Source: Desulfogranum japonicum DSM 18378
Lineage (GTDB): Bacteria; Desulfobacterota; Desulfobulbia; Desulfobulbales; Desulfobulbaceae
NCBI RefSeq assembly: GCF_000429945.1
Contig: NZ_AUCV01000059.1
Location: 1-32,932, forward strand
Direction: 5' to 3'
Length of the DNA: 32,932 nt
Under the pieces are notes generated by a model. It was given only the letters and a program-made list of their open reading frames with translations. It did no database searches and was not told the DNA's origin. A program made the position numbers and the translations under genes. This document shows positions 162-32,468 of the stretch, piece by piece. How positions within the stretch are numbered: position 1 is the stretch's first letter; each line of letters starts with the position of its first letter.

Positions 162-178
162 TGAATTGATCGTGTGAG

Positions 179-211
179 GAGCCGTGTGCGTAAATAGCGC
201 AAGCACGGTTC
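179..211 (+). ncRNA. Group II intron domain V hairpin
   Basis: A 33-nt hairpin. The lower stem GAGCCGTG (179-186) pairs with CACGGTTC (204-211, one G-U). A two-base AG bulge (202-203) follows, then an upper stem TGCG/CGCA closed by a short A-rich loop. This is the conserved catalytic core of group II introns, in the expected place after the maturase gene. Confidence 0.85.
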
Positions 212-387
212 TGAGAGGGGCCGGGGCCAACGGGTAATACTCTATAGACAGGAGCTCATGACACGTAGTAGTCGCGTGCGACGAGGCGTCAAGTAAAAGT
301 CAATGAAGTCCCTATCTATTGTTTGCCTGGAGAAACCGGTCTACTCGACTTCTTGCAAATCATCACCACATCGCTTATCTCTACCCT

Positions 388-19037: not shown

Positions 19038-20051
19038 ATGAGTGCCCCTAAAGCCATCATTGATAATGAATTGATACGGGAAATAATTTCCATTCGGACA
19101 AATACTCTGTGGAAAATGCTGGCAATGGAAGCCCAACAGCTCATGCCAGATGTCCATGAAGAGGGGGCAACCGGAAAATTCGATAATAAAGGTGCCATTT
19201 TCATCCCTGGGGGCCTTGTTACCCATGATGTTGATGAAAATCCCATCTCATATCAGCCATATCCTGAAAAATCAGCAGATGCTTTTCGAAAATCCATTCG
19301 CCAGGCCATGTACTACGATAATGCAACCCTGCTTTCACCTGAAGGTATAGCTTCTGGAATCACTATTGACGGTGGTTTTTTTTCAAGAGCAGCCCGCAGG
19401 GTCATTACTTTCAAGAAAGCTGCATTACGAAGAAAAAAGAAAATAGACTCGTATCGACATTTCGAAGTTCATTCCCATGATATTATCCGCAGCCATTGCC
19501 CTTCCTACTTTAAACCTCCATACGGCTCACGAACTCGAATCAGCAGCTATGTGGCCATTGCTTTGATTGAACCGGCAATGTTTTATTCCTATTACCTGTC
19601 CAGCCTGAATTTGGATAATGATCAAAAACGAACATATACACAACAATTCGACAATGTACGAGACGTAGCTAAAGCCTCTGATGGCACAATACTATATGCT
19701 CCTCAAATCGTCGTTTGTCACGACTCCAGGTATAGCAAATTACACTATACCGGCTTGACACGCATTCTTGGTATAGGAAAATTTGGAGAATTTGCCACTT
19801 TCAGTTTGGAAGAACTCACCAAATCACTGCAAAGAGAATGTAAACGTAAAGGCATTGAATACCAGAATGAAGATATTTTCGCACACTACAACGATCGTCA
19901 ACTCGTCGGAATTTTGAGAGTATACGCCAGCACTACACCGGGCAGACGTTCTAAAAAATATCAATTGCACGTACTGTCCCCAGAGAGGGATCTGGGAATA
20001 GACGTGCGGGAAATTGAAAAAGAGGCACGCGAACAGTACCAGATACTTTAG
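19038..20051 (+). CDS. Protein of unknown function, C-terminus at a repeat boundary
   Basis: 337 residues, soluble, without signal peptide or membrane segments. I recognise no family. Visible features are a basic patch RRVITFKKAALRRKKKID (about 119-136), PPYGSRTRISSYVAIALIEPAM in the middle, and a C-terminal mixed charged region. The stop TAG (20049-20051) lies inside the left end of the 165-bp repeat at 20047, so the native C-terminus may have been cut or changed by the insertion. No good ribosome site is seen before ATG 19038. The next gene on the same strand is an MscS-type channel, with the repeat in between. Confidence 0.6.
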   Translation: MSAPKAIIDNELIREIISIRTNTLWKMLAMEAQQLMPDVHEEGATGKFDNKGAIFIPGGLVTHDVDENPISYQPYPEKSADAFRKSIRQAMYYDNATLLSPEGIASGITIDGGFFSRAARRVITFKKAALRRKKKIDSYRHFEVHSHDIIRSHCPSYFKPPYGSRTRISSYVAIALIEPAMFYSYYLSSLNLDNDQKRTYTQQFDNVRDVAKASDGTILYAPQIVVCHDSRYSKLHYTGLTRILGIGKFGEFATFSLEELTKSLQRECKRKGIEYQNEDIFAHYNDRQLVGILRVYASTTPGRRSKKYQLHVLSPERDLGIDVREIEKEAREQYQIL

Positions 20052-20215
20052 GGCCACGAAAAAAATAAAGTATCCAATCTTGCTTGTCTCTCAACTCGGT
20101 AATGTCGTAGCGTCAATGACTCAATACGGCCAGTATGGAACCCTTGAAGCGACGACGTTACCAAACCGATACCCTACGCAATTTTTGAATAATTATTATT
20201 TTCCGCGCCCCTTAA
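20047..20215 (+). repeat. 165-bp hairpin MITE family, copy 1
   Basis: Left end TTTAGGGCCACGAAAA and right end TTTTCCGCGCCCCTTAA are inverted. A central inverted repeat (20098-20119 with 20142-20162, imperfect here) encloses a conserved loop with ATACGGCCAGTAT. Shares its whole length with copies at 24197, 29055 and 32318. Two variants in its left end, ACGAAAAAA and AAAGTATC, are found only here and in the solo end at 21803. Confidence 0.9.
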
Positions 20216-24148: not shown

Positions 24149-24196
24149 AATGTCGGACACGTTCTCGTTACCATAGATTTTTTGACCGTTTTCACA

Positions 24197-24360
24197 TAAG
24201 GATCACGGAAAAAATAAATTATCCAATGTTGCCTGTCTCTCAACTCGGTAACGTCCTAGCGTCAATGGCTCATACGGCCAGTGGAAACATTGACGCTGCG
24301 ATGTCACCAAACCGATATCCTACGCATTTTTTGGATATTTATTATTTTCCGCGACACTAA
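24197..24360 (+). repeat. 165-bp hairpin MITE family, copy 2 (degenerate)
   Basis: It matches copies 1 and 3 over the whole length: ACGGAAAAAATAAATTATCC on the left, CTCTCAACTCGGTAACGTC, the loop CATACGGCCAGT, and ATTTATTATTTTCCGCG on the right. The central inverted repeat has several mismatches, so the hairpin is weaker. The whole copy lies in the untranslated leader of eda. Confidence 0.85.
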
Positions 24361-25208: not shown

Positions 25209-27245
25209 TTACCCCTCTTTATCACCTTGTACTTCCACAGCTACATCATAGAGGGTGGCCCCATTGCCTTTATCAGTCAACCGCTGGGACATCAGCGCAT
25301 TGACACCATTTTCCCCTGCAACGAAATCCAACCACCAGAGCCCTTCCGTCACTACTGTTCCAGGGATAGTTCTCTCACTCACACTCAACGTGAAACGAAC
25401 GCTCCCATAGTCATTAAATGCCGTCACCTGTTGCCCGTCAACCAATTCTCTGACCTCTGCATCTTCAGGATGCATCAGAAGGCACATAACAGCTTGCTTT
25501 GCACGCAAACCATCCTGCTCATAAAAAGTTGAGTTTAAACTGTACCGACTGGGTGCGGACTGCAGAAGTAATGGAAATGAGTCATACGCAGCATGGGTAG
25601 ACAGTATCCTTGGTAATGGTTCAGATTCACGAACATTAAGAATCTCTATCTTTCCCGACGGAGTAAGCCATTGAGATTTGGGGTCTGTGGGCACATTCAG
25701 AACCACAGCTTTTCCCTGCTGTAAACGTTCATTGGTTCCTTTATCCCTCCAGGCATTCTCGTCAGCCAGCAATTCTCCTATCAAGTCAGTGGCCTGTTTG
25801 GTAAAAAACGGTTCATTCCATCCCATTCCCTCTGCAAGCATCTGAAAAACCTGCCAGTTGGATTTGGCCTGTCCAACCGGTGCAATGATGGCTTTGCCAA
25901 GTTGTGCGCAATAGTGGCCATAGGAACGGTATAAATCGTCATGCTCCAGTGAAGTTGTGGCTGGCAACACTATGTCTGCAAATCTGGCAGTATCAGTCAT
26001 GAAGCGCTCATGGACAACAGTAAAAAGATCTTCTCGCCTAAGCCCTTCATGAATGGCACATTGATCAGGTGAAACCAGTGCAGGGTTGGCATGATACACA
26101 TACAGAGAGTGTACTGGTGGAGTGAAGGTGCCTGAAAGGGCAGCACCAAGTTGGTTCATATTGATAACCCTCGTTGACTGTTTCATGAAATCAGGGCGTA
26201 CGATTTTGTGCATGGCGAAAGCAGCCCCGGTCGAGGTTCCACCAAACACTCCCCCACCACTTCTCGTCCATGCTCCTGTTAAAGACGGTAAACAGGTAAT
26301 CGACCTGACTGCCATGGCACCGTTTCCATACCTGGAAAGACCATTACCCAAACGAATAAACGGTGCTTCTGCAGCAGCATATTGGCTGGCCATCCGTTCT
26401 ATTACTGCAGAAGGAATCCCGGTAAGCACCGACATTTTTTCAGGAGAACAATCAGACAATACAGTCTGGGTGAGTTCTTGGTAACCGAGTACGTTTTCAC
26501 TAATGAAGCTGGTATCTGTCAGATTGTCGCGTACCAGGACATGCATCATCCCCAGAACCAGGGAGGTATCAGAACCAGGCTTCAACAGAAAGACTTCATC
26601 GGCCAATTCGGCAGTGGCCGTCATATACGTATCAATCACCCATATTTTAGCCCCTTGCCTTTTTGCCAGTAAAGCATCCCGCATGGTATGTATGCTTGTT
26701 GCTGCGGCATTAATACCCCAGAGAATAACCAGATCACTCTGAAGAATCTCCTCTGGTTGCATACCTGGCGTTTCCCCCATAACCGTTGACCACCCAGCTC
26801 CTTTGGCCGCTGAGCAGATTGTTCGCTCAAGTTGTGACGCTCCCAGATAATGAAAAAATGCGTGCCCTGCATTTCGCTGAACCATCCCCATGGTTCCCCC
26901 ATAGGAGTATGGTAATATAGCTTCAGTTCCGTACTTCATAGAGATATTTTGCCAGGTTTCGCAGACTCGTTGGATAGCCTCCTCCCATGATATCGGGGTA
27001 AACCTCCCTTCTCCTTTTTTCCCTGTCCTGAGTAAAGGAGTGGTCAATCTTCCTGGAGAGTGAACCGTTTTCCCATAACTATGCATCTTCGGGCAAATAA
27101 AGCCTTGGGTGACAGGATGAGCAGGATCTCCGGCAACGCTTAAAACAGTGTCACCTTCCACTGTAATCAGGAGTCCACAGGCATCCGGACAATCATATGG
27201 GCAAACAGATGTAAGAATTTGTCTTCTATTCACGCTACACACCAT
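25209..27245 (-). CDS. Molybdopterin oxidoreductase (DMSO reductase superfamily)
   Basis: 678 residues. The N-terminal 4Fe-4S ligands are C15, C19, C23 and C51 (CPYDCPDAC and GFICPK). Molybdopterin-binding landmarks follow: PYSYGGTMGMVQRN, ERTICSAAKGAGW, LVILWGINAAATS, KIWVIDTYMTATAELAD, FIRLGNGLSRYGNG, and the C-terminal dinucleotide-binding domain near PSRYSLNSTFYEQDGL. No twin-arginine signal is seen, so it should be cytoplasmic. The lengths and the CPYDCPD motif fit the group of soluble, one-subunit oxidoreductases often annotated as formate-dehydrogenase-like; the substrate cannot be told. ATG 27245 has no ribosome site. A MITE begins 12 bases upstream and separates the gene from a Fur box. 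Confidence 0.88.
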   Translation of the reverse strand: MVCSVNRRQILTSVCPYDCPDACGLLITVEGDTVLSVAGDPAHPVTQGFICPKMHSYGKTVHSPGRLTTPLLRTGKKGEGRFTPISWEEAIQRVCETWQNISMKYGTEAILPYSYGGTMGMVQRNAGHAFFHYLGASQLERTICSAAKGAGWSTVMGETPGMQPEEILQSDLVILWGINAAATSIHTMRDALLAKRQGAKIWVIDTYMTATAELADEVFLLKPGSDTSLVLGMMHVLVRDNLTDTSFISENVLGYQELTQTVLSDCSPEKMSVLTGIPSAVIERMASQYAAAEAPFIRLGNGLSRYGNGAMAVRSITCLPSLTGAWTRSGGGVFGGTSTGAAFAMHKIVRPDFMKQSTRVINMNQLGAALSGTFTPPVHSLYVYHANPALVSPDQCAIHEGLRREDLFTVVHERFMTDTARFADIVLPATTSLEHDDLYRSYGHYCAQLGKAIIAPVGQAKSNWQVFQMLAEGMGWNEPFFTKQATDLIGELLADENAWRDKGTNERLQQGKAVVLNVPTDPKSQWLTPSGKIEILNVRESEPLPRILSTHAAYDSFPLLLQSAPSRYSLNSTFYEQDGLRAKQAVMCLLMHPEDAEVRELVDGQQVTAFNDYGSVRFTLSVSERTIPGTVVTEGLWWLDFVAGENGVNALMSQRLTDKGNGATLYDVAVEVQGDKEG

Positions 27246-27257
27246 AGTTTATTGAAC

Positions 27258-27417
27258 GTAACTGCTCACAGTGCCCCTGATCTTTCCGTGATCAGTCTGG
27301 CATACGTATGGGTCTATACCCAGCGCCCGCTTGCTTGCGAAAACCTCAGGCACCCTGTGAGGGGTTACAAATGCAGGAGAGTTTCCAGGTTTAGTTACTC
27401 ACCCTATGAATAGTTAC
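27258..27417 (+). mobile_element. IS66-like MITE, copy X (160 bp)
   Basis: It begins GTAACTGCTCACAG and ends with GTTAC. The flanks are TATTGAAC (27250-27257) and CATTGAAC (27418-27425), a duplication of 8 bp with one mismatch. IS66-family elements are known for GTAA ends and 8-bp duplications. The interior carries no gene. Copy Y at 27549 has the same length and about 80 percent visible identity. Confidence 0.85.
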
Positions 27418-27465
27418 CATTGAACAATATACTTGCTTGCAGTCAGATTTATTTTCTCTTTCTAC

Positions 27466-27484
27466 AAAAATGATTATCATTATG
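27466..27484. promoter_or_regulatory. Fur-box-like palindrome
   Basis: AAAAATGATTATCATTATG matches the 19-bp Fur consensus at 15 positions and keeps the central ATGATTATCAT core. It sits midway between the divergent molybdopterin oxidoreductase and GltD-like genes, with a MITE on each side. Iron-dependent repression of one or both genes is the inference. Confidence 0.6.
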
Positions 27485-27548
27485 CTATTCTTATTCCGAG
27501 GAGGTACACTTACCGGTTATGCCTTCCTCTGAAAGAAAAACGGTATTC

Positions 27549-27708
27549 GTAACTGCTTACAGTGCACCTGATCTTTCAGCGATCAGCCTGGCTTACGTAT
27601 GGGGCTATACACTGCGCCAGCCTGCTTGCAAAAAACTCAGGCACCCTGTAACCAGTTACAAATACAGGAGGGTTGCCAAGTTTAGTTACTTACCCTATGT
27701 GTCGTTTC
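27549..27708 (+). mobile_element. IS66-like MITE, copy Y (160 bp)
   Basis: Same family, length and orientation as copy X: GTAACTGCTTACAG at the start, GTTTC at the end. The flanks CGGTATTC (27541-27548) and CGATATTC (27709-27716) form an 8-bp duplication with one mismatch. An internal copy of the end, CAGGCACCCTGTAACCAGTTAC-like with the last base at 27659, makes an inner inverted repeat. A GAGGAGGT ribosome-like site and an ATG (27519) lie just upstream, cut off from the next gene by this copy. Confidence 0.85.
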
Positions 27709-27735
27709 CGATATTCTCATTTAATATATACTGCC

Positions 27736-29028
27736 ATGCCACATTCCTCCAATGTTAATCAACATTGTATCGATACACATGTTATAAGAGCTAACCAGGG
27801 CGAAGCCCAACGGTGTGTACTTTGTAAAAAACCACATTGCCAGGTCGGTTGCCCCATTGATACGCCAATTCCTGAAATTGTAAAATTGTATCGTGAAGAC
27901 AAACTGCTGGATGCTGGAAAAATCCTTTTTGAAAACAACCCATTATCTGTTATTTGCGCATTGGTGTGTGTCCATGAGGATCAATGCAAAGGCAATTGTG
28001 TGCGTGGCAAAAAGGGCGAACCAATACGGTTTCATGAAATCGAGTACGAGATTTCACTCAGATATCTCGAACAGGTTCAATTTCCGAAAGTTACGCCAAC
28101 CAAGGCCCGTATTGCGGTTGTAGGAGGTGGACCGGCAGGTATCACCGTGGCATACCTGCTGGCAAGAAACGGATATAATGTAACCTTATTTGATGCCCAC
28201 GACAAAATCGGGGGAGTGCTGCGCTATGGCATTCCAGAATATCGATTGCCAAAAAGGATTATCGATCTTCTTGAAAATGAACTCTATGCCATGGGAGTAA
28301 AAATCCGACCAAATACCATGATTGGCCCGGTTATCTCACTGGACAGACTTTTTGAGGATGGCTATAAAGCTGCTTTCATCGGAACAGGCGTGTGGAATCC
28401 CAGAACATTGGGCATCAAAGGGGAAACGCTGGGCAATGTGCATTATGCCATCGACTATCTCAAATCCCCGAATGTGTATCGATTGGGAAAACGGTTGGCA
28501 GTTATCGGTGCTGGAAACGTAGCCATGGACGTAGCCCGAAGCGCTAAAAGGAACGGGGTACCCGAAGTAACCATTATCTATCGTAAAAACTTTGAACAAA
28601 TGCCTGCAACCAGACATGAACTTGAACAAGCTCGTTCAGAAGGTATTCGTTTCTTGCTGCAACGTGCCCCCATTGAATTAACCGAAACAGGTTTGCGCCT
28701 TGCGGTGCAGGAACAGGTATCAGGAGAAAACGGCAGCATGAACTGGCGCGATAGGGGAATTGCAGAAGAGTTTTTTGCCTGCGATACCATTATTATTGCT
28801 GTCAGCCAGGTTCCTAAAACCAACATCGTTTCCAGCACCACAAAACTCAACACCAATCGAATGGGATTACTGATAACTGATGACAAAGGTAACACCACCA
28901 AGGAGGGAACCTTTGCCTCAGGCGATGTGGTTACTGGAGCTAAAACCGTGGTGGAGGCGGTTGTGCAGGCAAAAGTAGTGGCCGAGACCATAGACAGATA
29001 CTGCAGGGAAAATGGGTACAATACATAA
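27736..29028 (+). CDS. GltD-like FAD/NAD(P)-dependent oxidoreductase
   Basis: 430 residues. The N-terminal domain binds two 4Fe-4S clusters (CVLCKKPHCQVGCPID and CALVCVHEDQCKGNC), the Fer4_20 module shared by glutamate synthase small subunits and dihydropyrimidine dehydrogenase. FAD binding is at IAVVGGGPAGITVAYLL and NAD(P) binding at LAVIGAGNVAMDVARSAKR; the C-terminus has TFASGDVVTGAKTVVEAV. Such subunits pass electrons from NADPH to a partner. No GltB is nearby, so it may serve glutamate synthesis elsewhere or act alone, as in many anaerobes. The start at 27736 leaves out residues from copy Y that an upstream ATG (27673) would add. The frame continues to the normal family end. Confidence 0.88.
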   Translation: MPHSSNVNQHCIDTHVIRANQGEAQRCVLCKKPHCQVGCPIDTPIPEIVKLYREDKLLDAGKILFENNPLSVICALVCVHEDQCKGNCVRGKKGEPIRFHEIEYEISLRYLEQVQFPKVTPTKARIAVVGGGPAGITVAYLLARNGYNVTLFDAHDKIGGVLRYGIPEYRLPKRIIDLLENELYAMGVKIRPNTMIGPVISLDRLFEDGYKAAFIGTGVWNPRTLGIKGETLGNVHYAIDYLKSPNVYRLGKRLAVIGAGNVAMDVARSAKRNGVPEVTIIYRKNFEQMPATRHELEQARSEGIRFLLQRAPIELTETGLRLAVQEQVSGENGSMNWRDRGIAEEFFACDTIIIAVSQVPKTNIVSSTTKLNTNRMGLLITDDKGNTTKEGTFASGDVVTGAKTVVEAVVQAKVVAETIDRYCRENGYNT

Positions 29029-29054: not shown

Positions 29055-29222
29055 TTTAGGGCTGCGGAAAAAATAAATTATCCAATCTAGCGTGTCTCTC
29101 AACTCGGTAACGTCGTCGCGTCAATGACTCACAATACGGCCAGTATGGAACCATTGACGCGACGACGTTACCAAATCGATACCCTACACAATTTTTAAAT
29201 ATTTATCATTTTCCTCCACCCT
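29055..29222 (+). repeat. 165-bp hairpin MITE family, copy 3 (best hairpin)
   Basis: The central stem is a perfect 21-bp inverted repeat (29106-29126 with 29152-29172, beginning GGTAACGTCGTCGCG) around a 25-base loop. The left end is TTTAGGGCTGCGGAAAA; the right end, TTTTCCTCCACCC, is degraded. It lies 26 bases after the GltD-like stop codon and could act as a terminator. Confidence 0.92.
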
Positions 29223-29586
29223 TGCACCGAGCCAGGCATACTGCTCGTAAACCTTGTCTGCAATTCTTAGTGATTTTCTGTTTGGTCATAGTACAGAATG
29301 AACGATCAGACGTGCCCAATTTTTTGAAAAACAGTGGTCAGTATAATTGGCTAAATTCATAAATTTAGTCTTTTCCGTAATTTTTTTCCTAAAATACGGA
29401 ATACAAAAAGGGTTGCATTTCACATTTTTTTGCATACAAATCAATTTGTTATATCAAAACAAGCAATATCCGTATTGTATAATGTACAGCCATTGTTTAC
29501 AAAAATGATCTTCAATATACAGATTACGGATACGTATCAAGTCGAAATATACCGATGTCCATCGTTATATGGATATATGATACATG
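29223..29586. other. AT-rich region with repeated TACGGA words
   Basis: No gene seen. A terminator-like inverted repeat TTCCGTAATTTT / AAAATACGGAA spans 29373-29402. The word ACGGATA or its complement recurs (ATATCCGTAT at 29467, ATTACGGATACG at 29523), and a TATAAT occurs at 29478 without a clear -35. These might be sites of one regulator. Confidence 0.35.
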
Positions 29587-29693
29587 AACTGGTTACAGCT
29601 TGTTAAGGTTTCTGCAAGCAGGCTGTTGCAGCATACTGGCCATACGTACGCCAGGCTGAACGCGGAAAGATTAGATGTGCTGTGAGCAGTTAC
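29587..29693 (-). mobile_element. IS66-like MITE, copy W (shortened, reverse orientation)
   Basis: The reverse complement starts GTAACTGCTCACAG at 29693 and follows copies X and Y for 107 bases through TTTCCGCGTTCAGCCTGG and CAGCCTGCTTGCA to CTGTAACCAGTT. The ~50-base tail present in X and Y is missing, and no 8-bp flanking duplication is seen. Confidence 0.75.
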
Positions 29694-29834: not shown

Positions 29835-29985
29835 GTAACCGATCACGGGTGCTTCAGATTTGAGCAAGCGCGGTTTTTCGCAGGTAAGCGAAGACTCCGG
29901 TAGGCTATTTATGTGTGAAACCGGCGGTCGTGCAAAGAGATAAGCGACCAGCGAGAGACTTCGTGGAATACCTGTGATCAATTAC
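29835..29985 (-). mobile_element. IS66-like MITE of a second type, copy V1 (151 bp)
   Basis: The ends GTAACCGATCACGGG and CCTGTGATCAATTAC are inverted (about 16 of 21 positions). Perfect 8-bp flanking repeats CCTTTTGC lie at 29827-29834 and 29986-29993. The interior is unrelated to copies X, Y and W, but the ends follow the same GTAAC pattern. A second copy in reverse orientation is at 32155-32304. Confidence 0.9.
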
Positions 29986-31105: not shown

Positions 31106-32089
31106 TTGGTGACTCTCTTAAAAAAATACTGGTTCTTCCTCGGTATACTTACGGTCTCCACTCTGCCGCTGCTCGACAAGTCTGATCAAACAGCCAGCCT
31201 GGGGTCATGGTTCAAGATGCACCATGGGCCTGAAGGAAGTATATTCCTCGTCTTTATCTTCTCTGGATTAATGGTACAATCCAGGCAAATTATAGCAGGT
31301 ATGGCAGATGCAAAGGGAACAGCAGCTTCACTGGCTATTACCTTTCTCGTCGCCCCAGCCATTGCCCGTCTATGGAGCGTGTTTCCTCTCCCAGAGAGCA
31401 TCTATACAGGGATAATACTCATTGCCATTATGCCGAGTACCTTAAGTAGTGGTGTTATTATGACGGGACTTGCAGGCGGCAATTCTATCCATGCACTTCT
31501 AATCACCATTCTTGGCAATATTATGGCCATTTTTACTATCCCTGTAACACTCCAATGGCTTATGAGCGGTGACAATATACAAACAGGTAATATGGAGTTT
31601 GCCCAGTCGAGCTTGATGTTGAAAATCGCATTACTGGTTGTTATCCCTCTCGCCGTGGGAGTTACCTGGAGAAAGGCCTTTCCAACTACTGTAAAACGCT
31701 TTACACCTTACGCAGGCATATTTAGCCAGATAAGCATCCTTTTCATCATCTGGATGGCCATATGTAATGGAAAAAACGATGTCGTCCAGGGTGGTATCGT
31801 CTTTATTGCAATCATACTTCTTAGTACAGGTCTTTTTCATTGTATGTTAATACTGGTTGGGATGTATATATCCCACCTATGCGACATACACAAAGGACGA
31901 AGAGAAAGTGTAATTATCATGGGAGGACAAAAAACATTACCTTTAAGCCTGATTATACAATCATCTTTATTTCCTGATTTAGGCCTGGCAGCTGTTACCT
32001 GTGTTCTACACCATATTCTCCACCTGGCAGTAGACGCATTTCTGGTTCAATATCTTAAACAAAAAGGTAACTGCTCACAGCGCACCTAA
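31106..32089 (+). CDS. Bile acid:sodium symporter family transporter
   Basis: 327 residues with about nine or ten membrane helices. Family signatures are IAIMPSTLSSGVIMTGLAGGNSIHALLITILGN, split over helices 4 and 5, and MGGQKTLPLSLII, as in the SBF-like (PF13593) branch. Real substrates in bacteria are organic anions with Na+; bile acid is only the family name. The start is unclear: TTG 31106 and GTG 31109 are possible, with no ribosome site. The last residues, GNCSQRT and the stop, are encoded by the GTAACTGCTCACAG end of a MITE at 32067, so the native C-terminus has been replaced. Confidence 0.85.
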   Translation: MVTLLKKYWFFLGILTVSTLPLLDKSDQTASLGSWFKMHHGPEGSIFLVFIFSGLMVQSRQIIAGMADAKGTAASLAITFLVAPAIARLWSVFPLPESIYTGIILIAIMPSTLSSGVIMTGLAGGNSIHALLITILGNIMAIFTIPVTLQWLMSGDNIQTGNMEFAQSSLMLKIALLVVIPLAVGVTWRKAFPTTVKRFTPYAGIFSQISILFIIWMAICNGKNDVVQGGIVFIAIILLSTGLFHCMLILVGMYISHLCDIHKGRRESVIIMGGQKTLPLSLIIQSSLFPDLGLAAVTCVLHHILHLAVDAFLVQYLKQKGNCSQRT

Positions 32090-32127
32090 TCTTTGGTGAT
32101 CAGCCTGACTTACGTAATTCCTGCCTG
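32067..32127 (+). mobile_element. IS66-like MITE fragment, copy Z
   Basis: GTAACTGCTCACAGCGCACCTAATC, split here as end plus interior, follows copies X and Y for about 50 bases (through CAGCCTGACTTACGTA) and then loses similarity. It supplies the stop codon of the transporter gene. Confidence 0.75.
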
Positions 32128-32154: not shown

Positions 32155-32304
32155 GCATCAAACCACAGGTACCCCACGAAGTCTCCCGCTGGTCGCTTAT
32201 CTCTTTTCACGATCGCGGTTTCCCCCACAGATAGCCTTCCGGAGTCATCGCTTACCTGCAAAAAACCGCAATTGTCCAAATCTGAAGCAACTGCAACCAG
32301 TCAC
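32155..32304 (+). mobile_element. IS66-like MITE of the second type, copy V2 (150 bp)
   Basis: The sequence matches the reverse complement of V1 over its whole length: ACCCCACGAAGTCTCCCGCT, GGTCGCTTATCTCTTTTCAC, CGGAGTCATCGCTTACCTGC. The ends have drifted from GTAAC and no flanking duplication remains, so this is an older copy. Confidence 0.8.
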
Positions 32305-32317
32305 AACTCAAAACTAA

Positions 32318-32468
32318 TTGAAATATCCAAAAATTGCGTAGGATATCGGTTTGGTAACGTCGTCGCGTCAATGTTTTCATACTGGTCGTATTGAGTAATT
32401 GACGCGACGACGTTACCGAGTTGAGAGACAAGCAAGATCGGATAATTTATTTTTTCCGTGCCCCTTAA
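32318..32468 (-). repeat. 165-bp hairpin MITE family, copy 4 (reverse orientation)
   Basis: A 20-bp perfect stem (32353-32372 with 32398-32417) encloses the TACTGGTCGTAT loop. The end next to hcp reads, in reverse complement, TTAAGGGGCACGGAAAAAA; the other end is lost beside copy V2. The TTAA at the end gives hcp its TAA stop codon. Confidence 0.9.

Follow-up and report, generated by a model that had tools for sequence, protein, structure and literature searches.

The question raised by this locus is whether two mobile insertions, one on each side of a putative operator, have cut that operator off from the two divergent genes that it would serve.

Two repeats in a divergent intergenic region

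Within the window, i.e. the whole stretch of 32,932 nt that was analysed, a molybdopterin oxidoreductase gene (mop) and a gene for a GltD-like flavoprotein are transcribed away from each other. The space between them is largely filled by two copies, X and Y, of a short repeat, which enclose an AT-rich island with a Fur-like palindrome:

25209..27245, minus strand: mop, molybdopterin oxidoreductase, 678 aa (open reading frame; PF00384, PF01568, PF04879)
27250..27257, no strand: left target duplication of X, TATTGAAC (7/8 against 27418-27425)
27258..27417, plus strand: MITE copy X, 160 nt (repeat alignment and flank comparison)
27258..27368, plus strand: module 1 of X, imperfect palindrome GTAACTGCTCACAG...CTGTGAGGGGTTAC (self-inverse matches, fold z)
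27418..27425, no strand: right target duplication of X, CATTGAAC (7/8 against the left duplication)
27418..27548, no strand: island between X and Y, 131 nt, 34% GC, including one duplication of each
27466..27484, no strand: Fur-like palindrome AAAAATGATTATCATTATG, 3/19 mismatches to GATAATGATAATCATTATC
27499..27505, plus strand: Shine-Dalgarno-like AGGAGGT, upstream of the ATG at 27519 (read from the sequence)
27519..27758, plus strand: predicted upstream ORF, 79 codons, open through Y and overlapping the GltD-like start
27541..27548, no strand: left target duplication of Y, CGGTATTC (7/8 against CGATATTC)
27549..27708, plus strand: MITE copy Y, 160 nt (repeat alignment and flank comparison)
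27549..27659, plus strand: module 1 of Y (self-inverse matches, fold z -3.41)
27709..27716, no strand: right target duplication of Y, CGATATTC (7/8 against CGGTATTC)
27736..29028, plus strand: GltD-like flavoprotein gene, 430 aa (PF14691, PF07992; first ATG after Y)

The positions of X and Y, their GTAAC-type ends—both copies begin with GTAAC—and the single mismatch in each 8-nt duplication are as the sequence-only reading had described them. Between X and the ATG of mop there remain 12 nt, and between Y and the ATG of the GltD-like gene at 27736 there remain 27 nt; the mechanically called ORF of the latter gene starts at a TTG inside Y (27673). For mop, the NCBIfam matches listed all fall under their cut-offs.

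The Fur-like palindrome and relatives of the gene pair

The palindrome between X and Y, claimed as a Fur box by the sequence-only reading, is a 19-nt dyad with three mismatches to GATAATGATAATCATTATC and the only site at such a distance in the window. Its occurrence by chance is unlikely: a site of this quality appeared in 2 of 100 dinucleotide-shuffled versions of the window and in 8 of 20,000 Markov sequences that matched the island in length (131 nt) and composition (0.0004). If X and Y are removed, its centre lies 62 nt from the ATG of the Mo-oxidoreductase and 93 nt from that of the GltD-like gene, close to the approximately 60 and 80-90 nt estimated previously. The palindrome is thus a predicted, and probably genuine, operator of the FUR family. 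It resembles the sites of Fur-regulated promoters (PMC3788343) in being a 19-mer close to GATAATGATAATCATTATC; as a predicted site, it differs from them in being absent upstream of the relatives scanned.

A quite plausible, though less probable, alternative is that the palindrome does not serve as a Fur box. It could be an AT-rich palindrome that arose by chance or survives as a relic, or it could belong to a different member of the FUR family. This alternative is favoured by the four FUR-family matches of the genome and by the lack of any site at five or fewer mismatches in the regions of its three feoB matches. On the other side, a 4-mismatch site precedes the start of one FUR-family gene (L206) by 51 nt, which together with the rarity of such sites in Markov sequences speaks for a Fur box in use; two other FUR-family genes have 6-mismatch sites close upstream and the fourth has none. 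The core 13-mer AATGATNATCATT is found at three places in the genome, and the other two, one inside an ORF and one between divergent ORFs, are not at an iron gene as read by eye.

The alternative also draws on the relatives. Sixteen mop loci, chosen as the closest of 47 and 50-65% identical, have no Fur-like site at five or fewer mismatches in 400 nt (0/16; L111 and L119 have one at six), and the relatives of the GltD-like gene have none at six or fewer mismatches in 350 nt (0/6). Conservation of the site upstream of orthologues was thus not observed, the orthology itself being uncertain. The sequence-only reading had named relatives lacking the Fur box as a finding that would count against it. 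This absence is indeed seen upstream of the relatives of both genes, but it is weak evidence because the proteins share only about 47-65% identity and their genes have different neighbours.

An empty site between the two genes was also sought in relatives and not found, because no relative searched has mop and the GltD-like gene as a pair. At 47 named mop-relative loci and three loci from the same genus, covered for up to 5 kb on each side (named loci) or about 1.5 kb (others), some of them short, there was no GltD-like match over 100 bits. Conversely, a search at E 1e-100 or better with six candidates scored per genome yielded six GltD-like relatives besides the gene's own in 257 genomes of the order, none with mop within about 1.5 kb and none with a MITE of the X/Y family at its locus. 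Among the relatives searched, the gene pair with its operator was therefore seen in this genome only.

Promoters, leaders and start signals

The sequence-only reading had concluded that the insertions separate the operator from both genes, so that either control has been lost or the elements act as promoters or spacers. Such a separation is not supported. Where Fur acts as a repressor, its box overlaps the site of RNA polymerase, as described in PMC3788343, and DNA inserted between promoter and start codon therefore only lengthens the leader. The 12 nt and 27 nt that remain next to mop and the GltD-like gene are too little for a promoter plus a leader; if the old promoters lie within the island, both insertions are in leaders. 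On this assumption about promoter position, both MITEs probably sit in 5' leaders, with operator and promoters left together.

Taken as a whole, the explanation that we favour, with a little more confidence than doubt, is one of MITEs with IS66-type ends in two 5' leaders and an operator island that was kept. The intergenic region would originally have been a short divergent one, with a promoter/operator island shared by both genes, and X and Y would have inserted into the two leaders, each between this island and a start codon. With the putative FUR-family operator retained in the island, any control of transcription by metal would most likely persist. Each leader would be 168 nt longer and rich in hairpins, and any effect would be one on translation or mRNA stability.

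Two other readings of the insertions are both unlikely. According to the first, which is that of the earlier analysis, the promoters were nearer to the genes than X and Y, such that the operator has been moved 168 nt further away and metal regulation has been lost. The original distances of 62 and 93 nt do leave room for promoters that X and Y could have split off. Moreover, at Fur-activated genes the box precedes the transcription start by 90-200 bp (PMC3788343), and in the case of activation by Fur, spacing could matter more. However, the short remainders on the gene side cannot hold promoter plus leader, and broken control would call for new promoters. A simple scan of 27200-27780 found no sigma-70-like promoter (shuffles average 1.5) and no terminator-like site (shuffles average 0.6), and neither lost control nor a MITE promoter has positive evidence in its favour. 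MITEs acting as terminators or as sigma-70 promoters were rejected on the same scans.

According to the second, the MITEs drive or start their neighbours, with Y providing the start signals of the GltD-like gene or an outward promoter. Inside Y there is an AGGAGGG at 27666-27672 as well as an in-frame TTG (27673) and an in-frame ATG (27697), with no stop before the GltD-like gene, and there is a precedent in MITEAba12 of Acinetobacter, which contributes start codons and initial residues to some of its neighbours and contains outward promoters (PMC6382973). Against this, AGGAGGG touches the TTG and is 24 nt away from the ATG, both of which are poor spacings; a relative of the GltD-like protein (G002) starts about 15 residues further in than the ATG at 27736; and the simple scan that found no promoter-like site in 27200-27780 included X and Y.

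For the leaders themselves, folding predicts little change. The mean unpaired probability is 0.44 with and 0.42 without the MITEs at the mop start, and 0.67 versus 0.58 at the GltD-like start. A loss of start accessibility was therefore rejected, and no effect on initiation is predicted. Reading of the sequence revealed no clear Shine-Dalgarno motif at normal spacing from either start, whether the MITE is present or removed. The upstream ORF beginning at 27519 would have 23 codons without Y and has 79 with it. That the MITEs have been kept for their two long structured leaders, with the upstream ORF, extended in frame by Y and still overlapping the GltD-like start, adding translational coupling to metal control, is very improbable; the insertions are real, but the case looks ordinary.

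The repeat family and its probable mobiliser

X and Y are separate, independent insertions of one 160-nt element, and both would be old. They have the same orientation and flank the island on both sides, as parts of a composite unit moved together might, but each has its own 7/8 duplication whereas the flanks to the left of X and to the right of Y agree at only 2/8, which refutes a single X-island-Y composite. A local duplication was likewise rejected, with X and Y 84% identical and their duplications different. In an alignment of copies chosen by likeness to X, the nearest to Y is another copy (0.869, versus 0.838 for X) and the nearest to X is Y (0.838, the next being at 0.831). Two copies in one gap need no special cause, because for 100-200 copies chance alone would give about 0.3 to 7 close pairs, a rough estimate ranging from the whole genome being open to insertion to an assumed 15% of it.

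X and Y belong to a MITE family that is very common in this genome. The element is short, has no transposase gene and carries terminal inverted repeats (GTAACTGCTCACAG- and GTAACTACTCATAG-type ends); at least 40 matches to X, including X and Y, were found with 40 of 167 candidates scored. We compared 31 near-full-length copies, X and Y included, i.e. those of the window and of loci L003-L030 taken from the list of matches to X and hence biased to X-like copies. In 23 of these, the 8-nt flanks agree at six or more positions and in 17 at seven or more, while eight fall below 6/8. Mismatched flank pairings reached six or more in only 7 of 930 cases, and with the right flank slid by 1 to 3 nt none or one of the 31 reached six, all of which argues for a target duplication of fixed length, 8 nt. 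By a simple rule that considers ORFs of 110 aa or more, none of the 31 copies is inside an ORF, and the gaps that they occupy are of all gene orientations.

The copies consist of two modules, the first 111-112 nt (module 1) and the last 48-49 nt (module 2). Module 1 is an imperfect palindrome, with the family profile matching the reverse strand in 31/31 copies, and folds better than all 200 shuffles both in X (z -4.85, on 27258-27370) and in Y (on 27549-27658). Module 2 carries at its terminus another, diverged end (consensus GTAACTACTCATAG). A hairpin in module 2 was rejected: for X, 157/200 shuffles fold at least as well, and for Y, which folds slightly better than its shuffles, 16/200 do.

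Counting its own genome, 7 of the 37 genomes searched have a match to the family. A solitary module 1 with a duplication of its own (ACAAGGAG) is present in a genome of the same genus (L092), and two further genera of the family have full forms with 8/8 duplications (L093, L096). A count of GTAACTGNTYACAG over the genome gave 203 (104 on one strand and 99 on the other), and that of its reversed control gave 0. When 44 ends in 40 further loci were checked, five could be paired with a partner end, their 8-nt duplications being perfect, namely L221 (200 nt), L240 (159 nt, weakly family-like) and the family copies L237, L246 (shortened to 83 nt) and L248; four more agreed at six or seven of eight, and the same rule gave no partner end for 35 of the 44.

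Other repeats are scattered over the window. Module 1 of the X/Y family is found alone downstream of the GltD-like gene (29587-29693, minus strand), and a 50-nt MITE fragment (32067-32116) covers the 3' end of an SBF-like transporter ORF (31106-32089), including the last codons and stop of that ORF. A second repeat family, of GGTAACGTCGTCGCGTCAATG-type palindromes, occupies 20047-20213, 24196-24359, 29055-29223 and 32321-32468 (71-90% identity to the reference). A direct repeat of 129 nt is present at 1122-1250 and 1538-1666 (96% identity), and an inverted pair of yet another repeat (CACGAAGTCTCCCGCTGGTCGCTTATCTC) at 29835-29976 and 32164-32304; by eye, the latter resembles the genome's repeat family beginning with GTAACTGATCACAG. 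At gathering cut-offs, Rfam returned nothing in the window besides a group II intron at 177-349 (plus strand; RF00029, 42.2 bits, cut-off 40).

GTAA-type ends are typical of the IS66 family, and X and Y were probably moved in trans, as non-autonomous elements, by an IS66-type transposase. The same genome contains an IS66-type element with ends GTAACTGATCACAGGG and with CCTTAACG bordering both sides. Its right end adjoins a TnpC C-terminus at 1-338 of contig C59 (PF03050, E 6.5e-9), and its left end is on contig C20 from 89569, 339 nt off the contig end and bordered by CCTTAACG. Because of this shared 8-mer and the end sequence, C20 and C59 appear to be the two sides of one IS66 insertion whose middle was not assembled. 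No Pfam family matches the left-end ORF above its cut-off, and a search of the genome for the IS66 TnpB (PF05717) did not find it. An identical right end occurs in C78 (L159), and C58 has a broken IS66 transposase with an internal stop. X and Y share their ends with this coresident element, their right end being a diverged version, and it is these like ends together with the duplication length that point to it as the candidate mobiliser. Of 20 fetched loci with GTAACTGATCACAG, 12 share sequence with one another and represent another repeat family with the same end, and four have the X/Y family at that end.

The wider IS66 family agrees with X and Y in GTAA-type ends and 8-nt duplications. It differs in that X and Y have 160 nt and no transposase gene and resemble the genome's IS at the ends only. 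Six of 33 IS66 loci scanned for GTAA ends plus a 7/8 duplication contain elements of 2.2-2.4 kb with perfect 8-nt duplications (L166, L167, L169, L185, L186, L189), and two Paracoccus IS66 elements are tabled with 8-nt repeats in PMC3281130. A comparable case is MITEAba12, which is mobilized by ISAba12 and is likewise short and non-coding, with IS-shared ends and target duplications, but which has 113 nt, 9-nt duplications and another parent element (PMC6382973); the outward promoters described for it have no counterpart at X and Y in the simple scan. Among the titles and opening lines of abstracts listed in our literature searches, none dealt with a MITE family of IS66 type or with a MITE next to a Fur box.

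Overall, the locus presents a clear case of a high-copy MITE family with ends matching those of an IS66-type element in the same genome, two independent insertions of which have spared an operator island. Should the leaders prove metal-responsive, MITEs would here rewire bacterial 5' leaders while the operator itself stays untouched.
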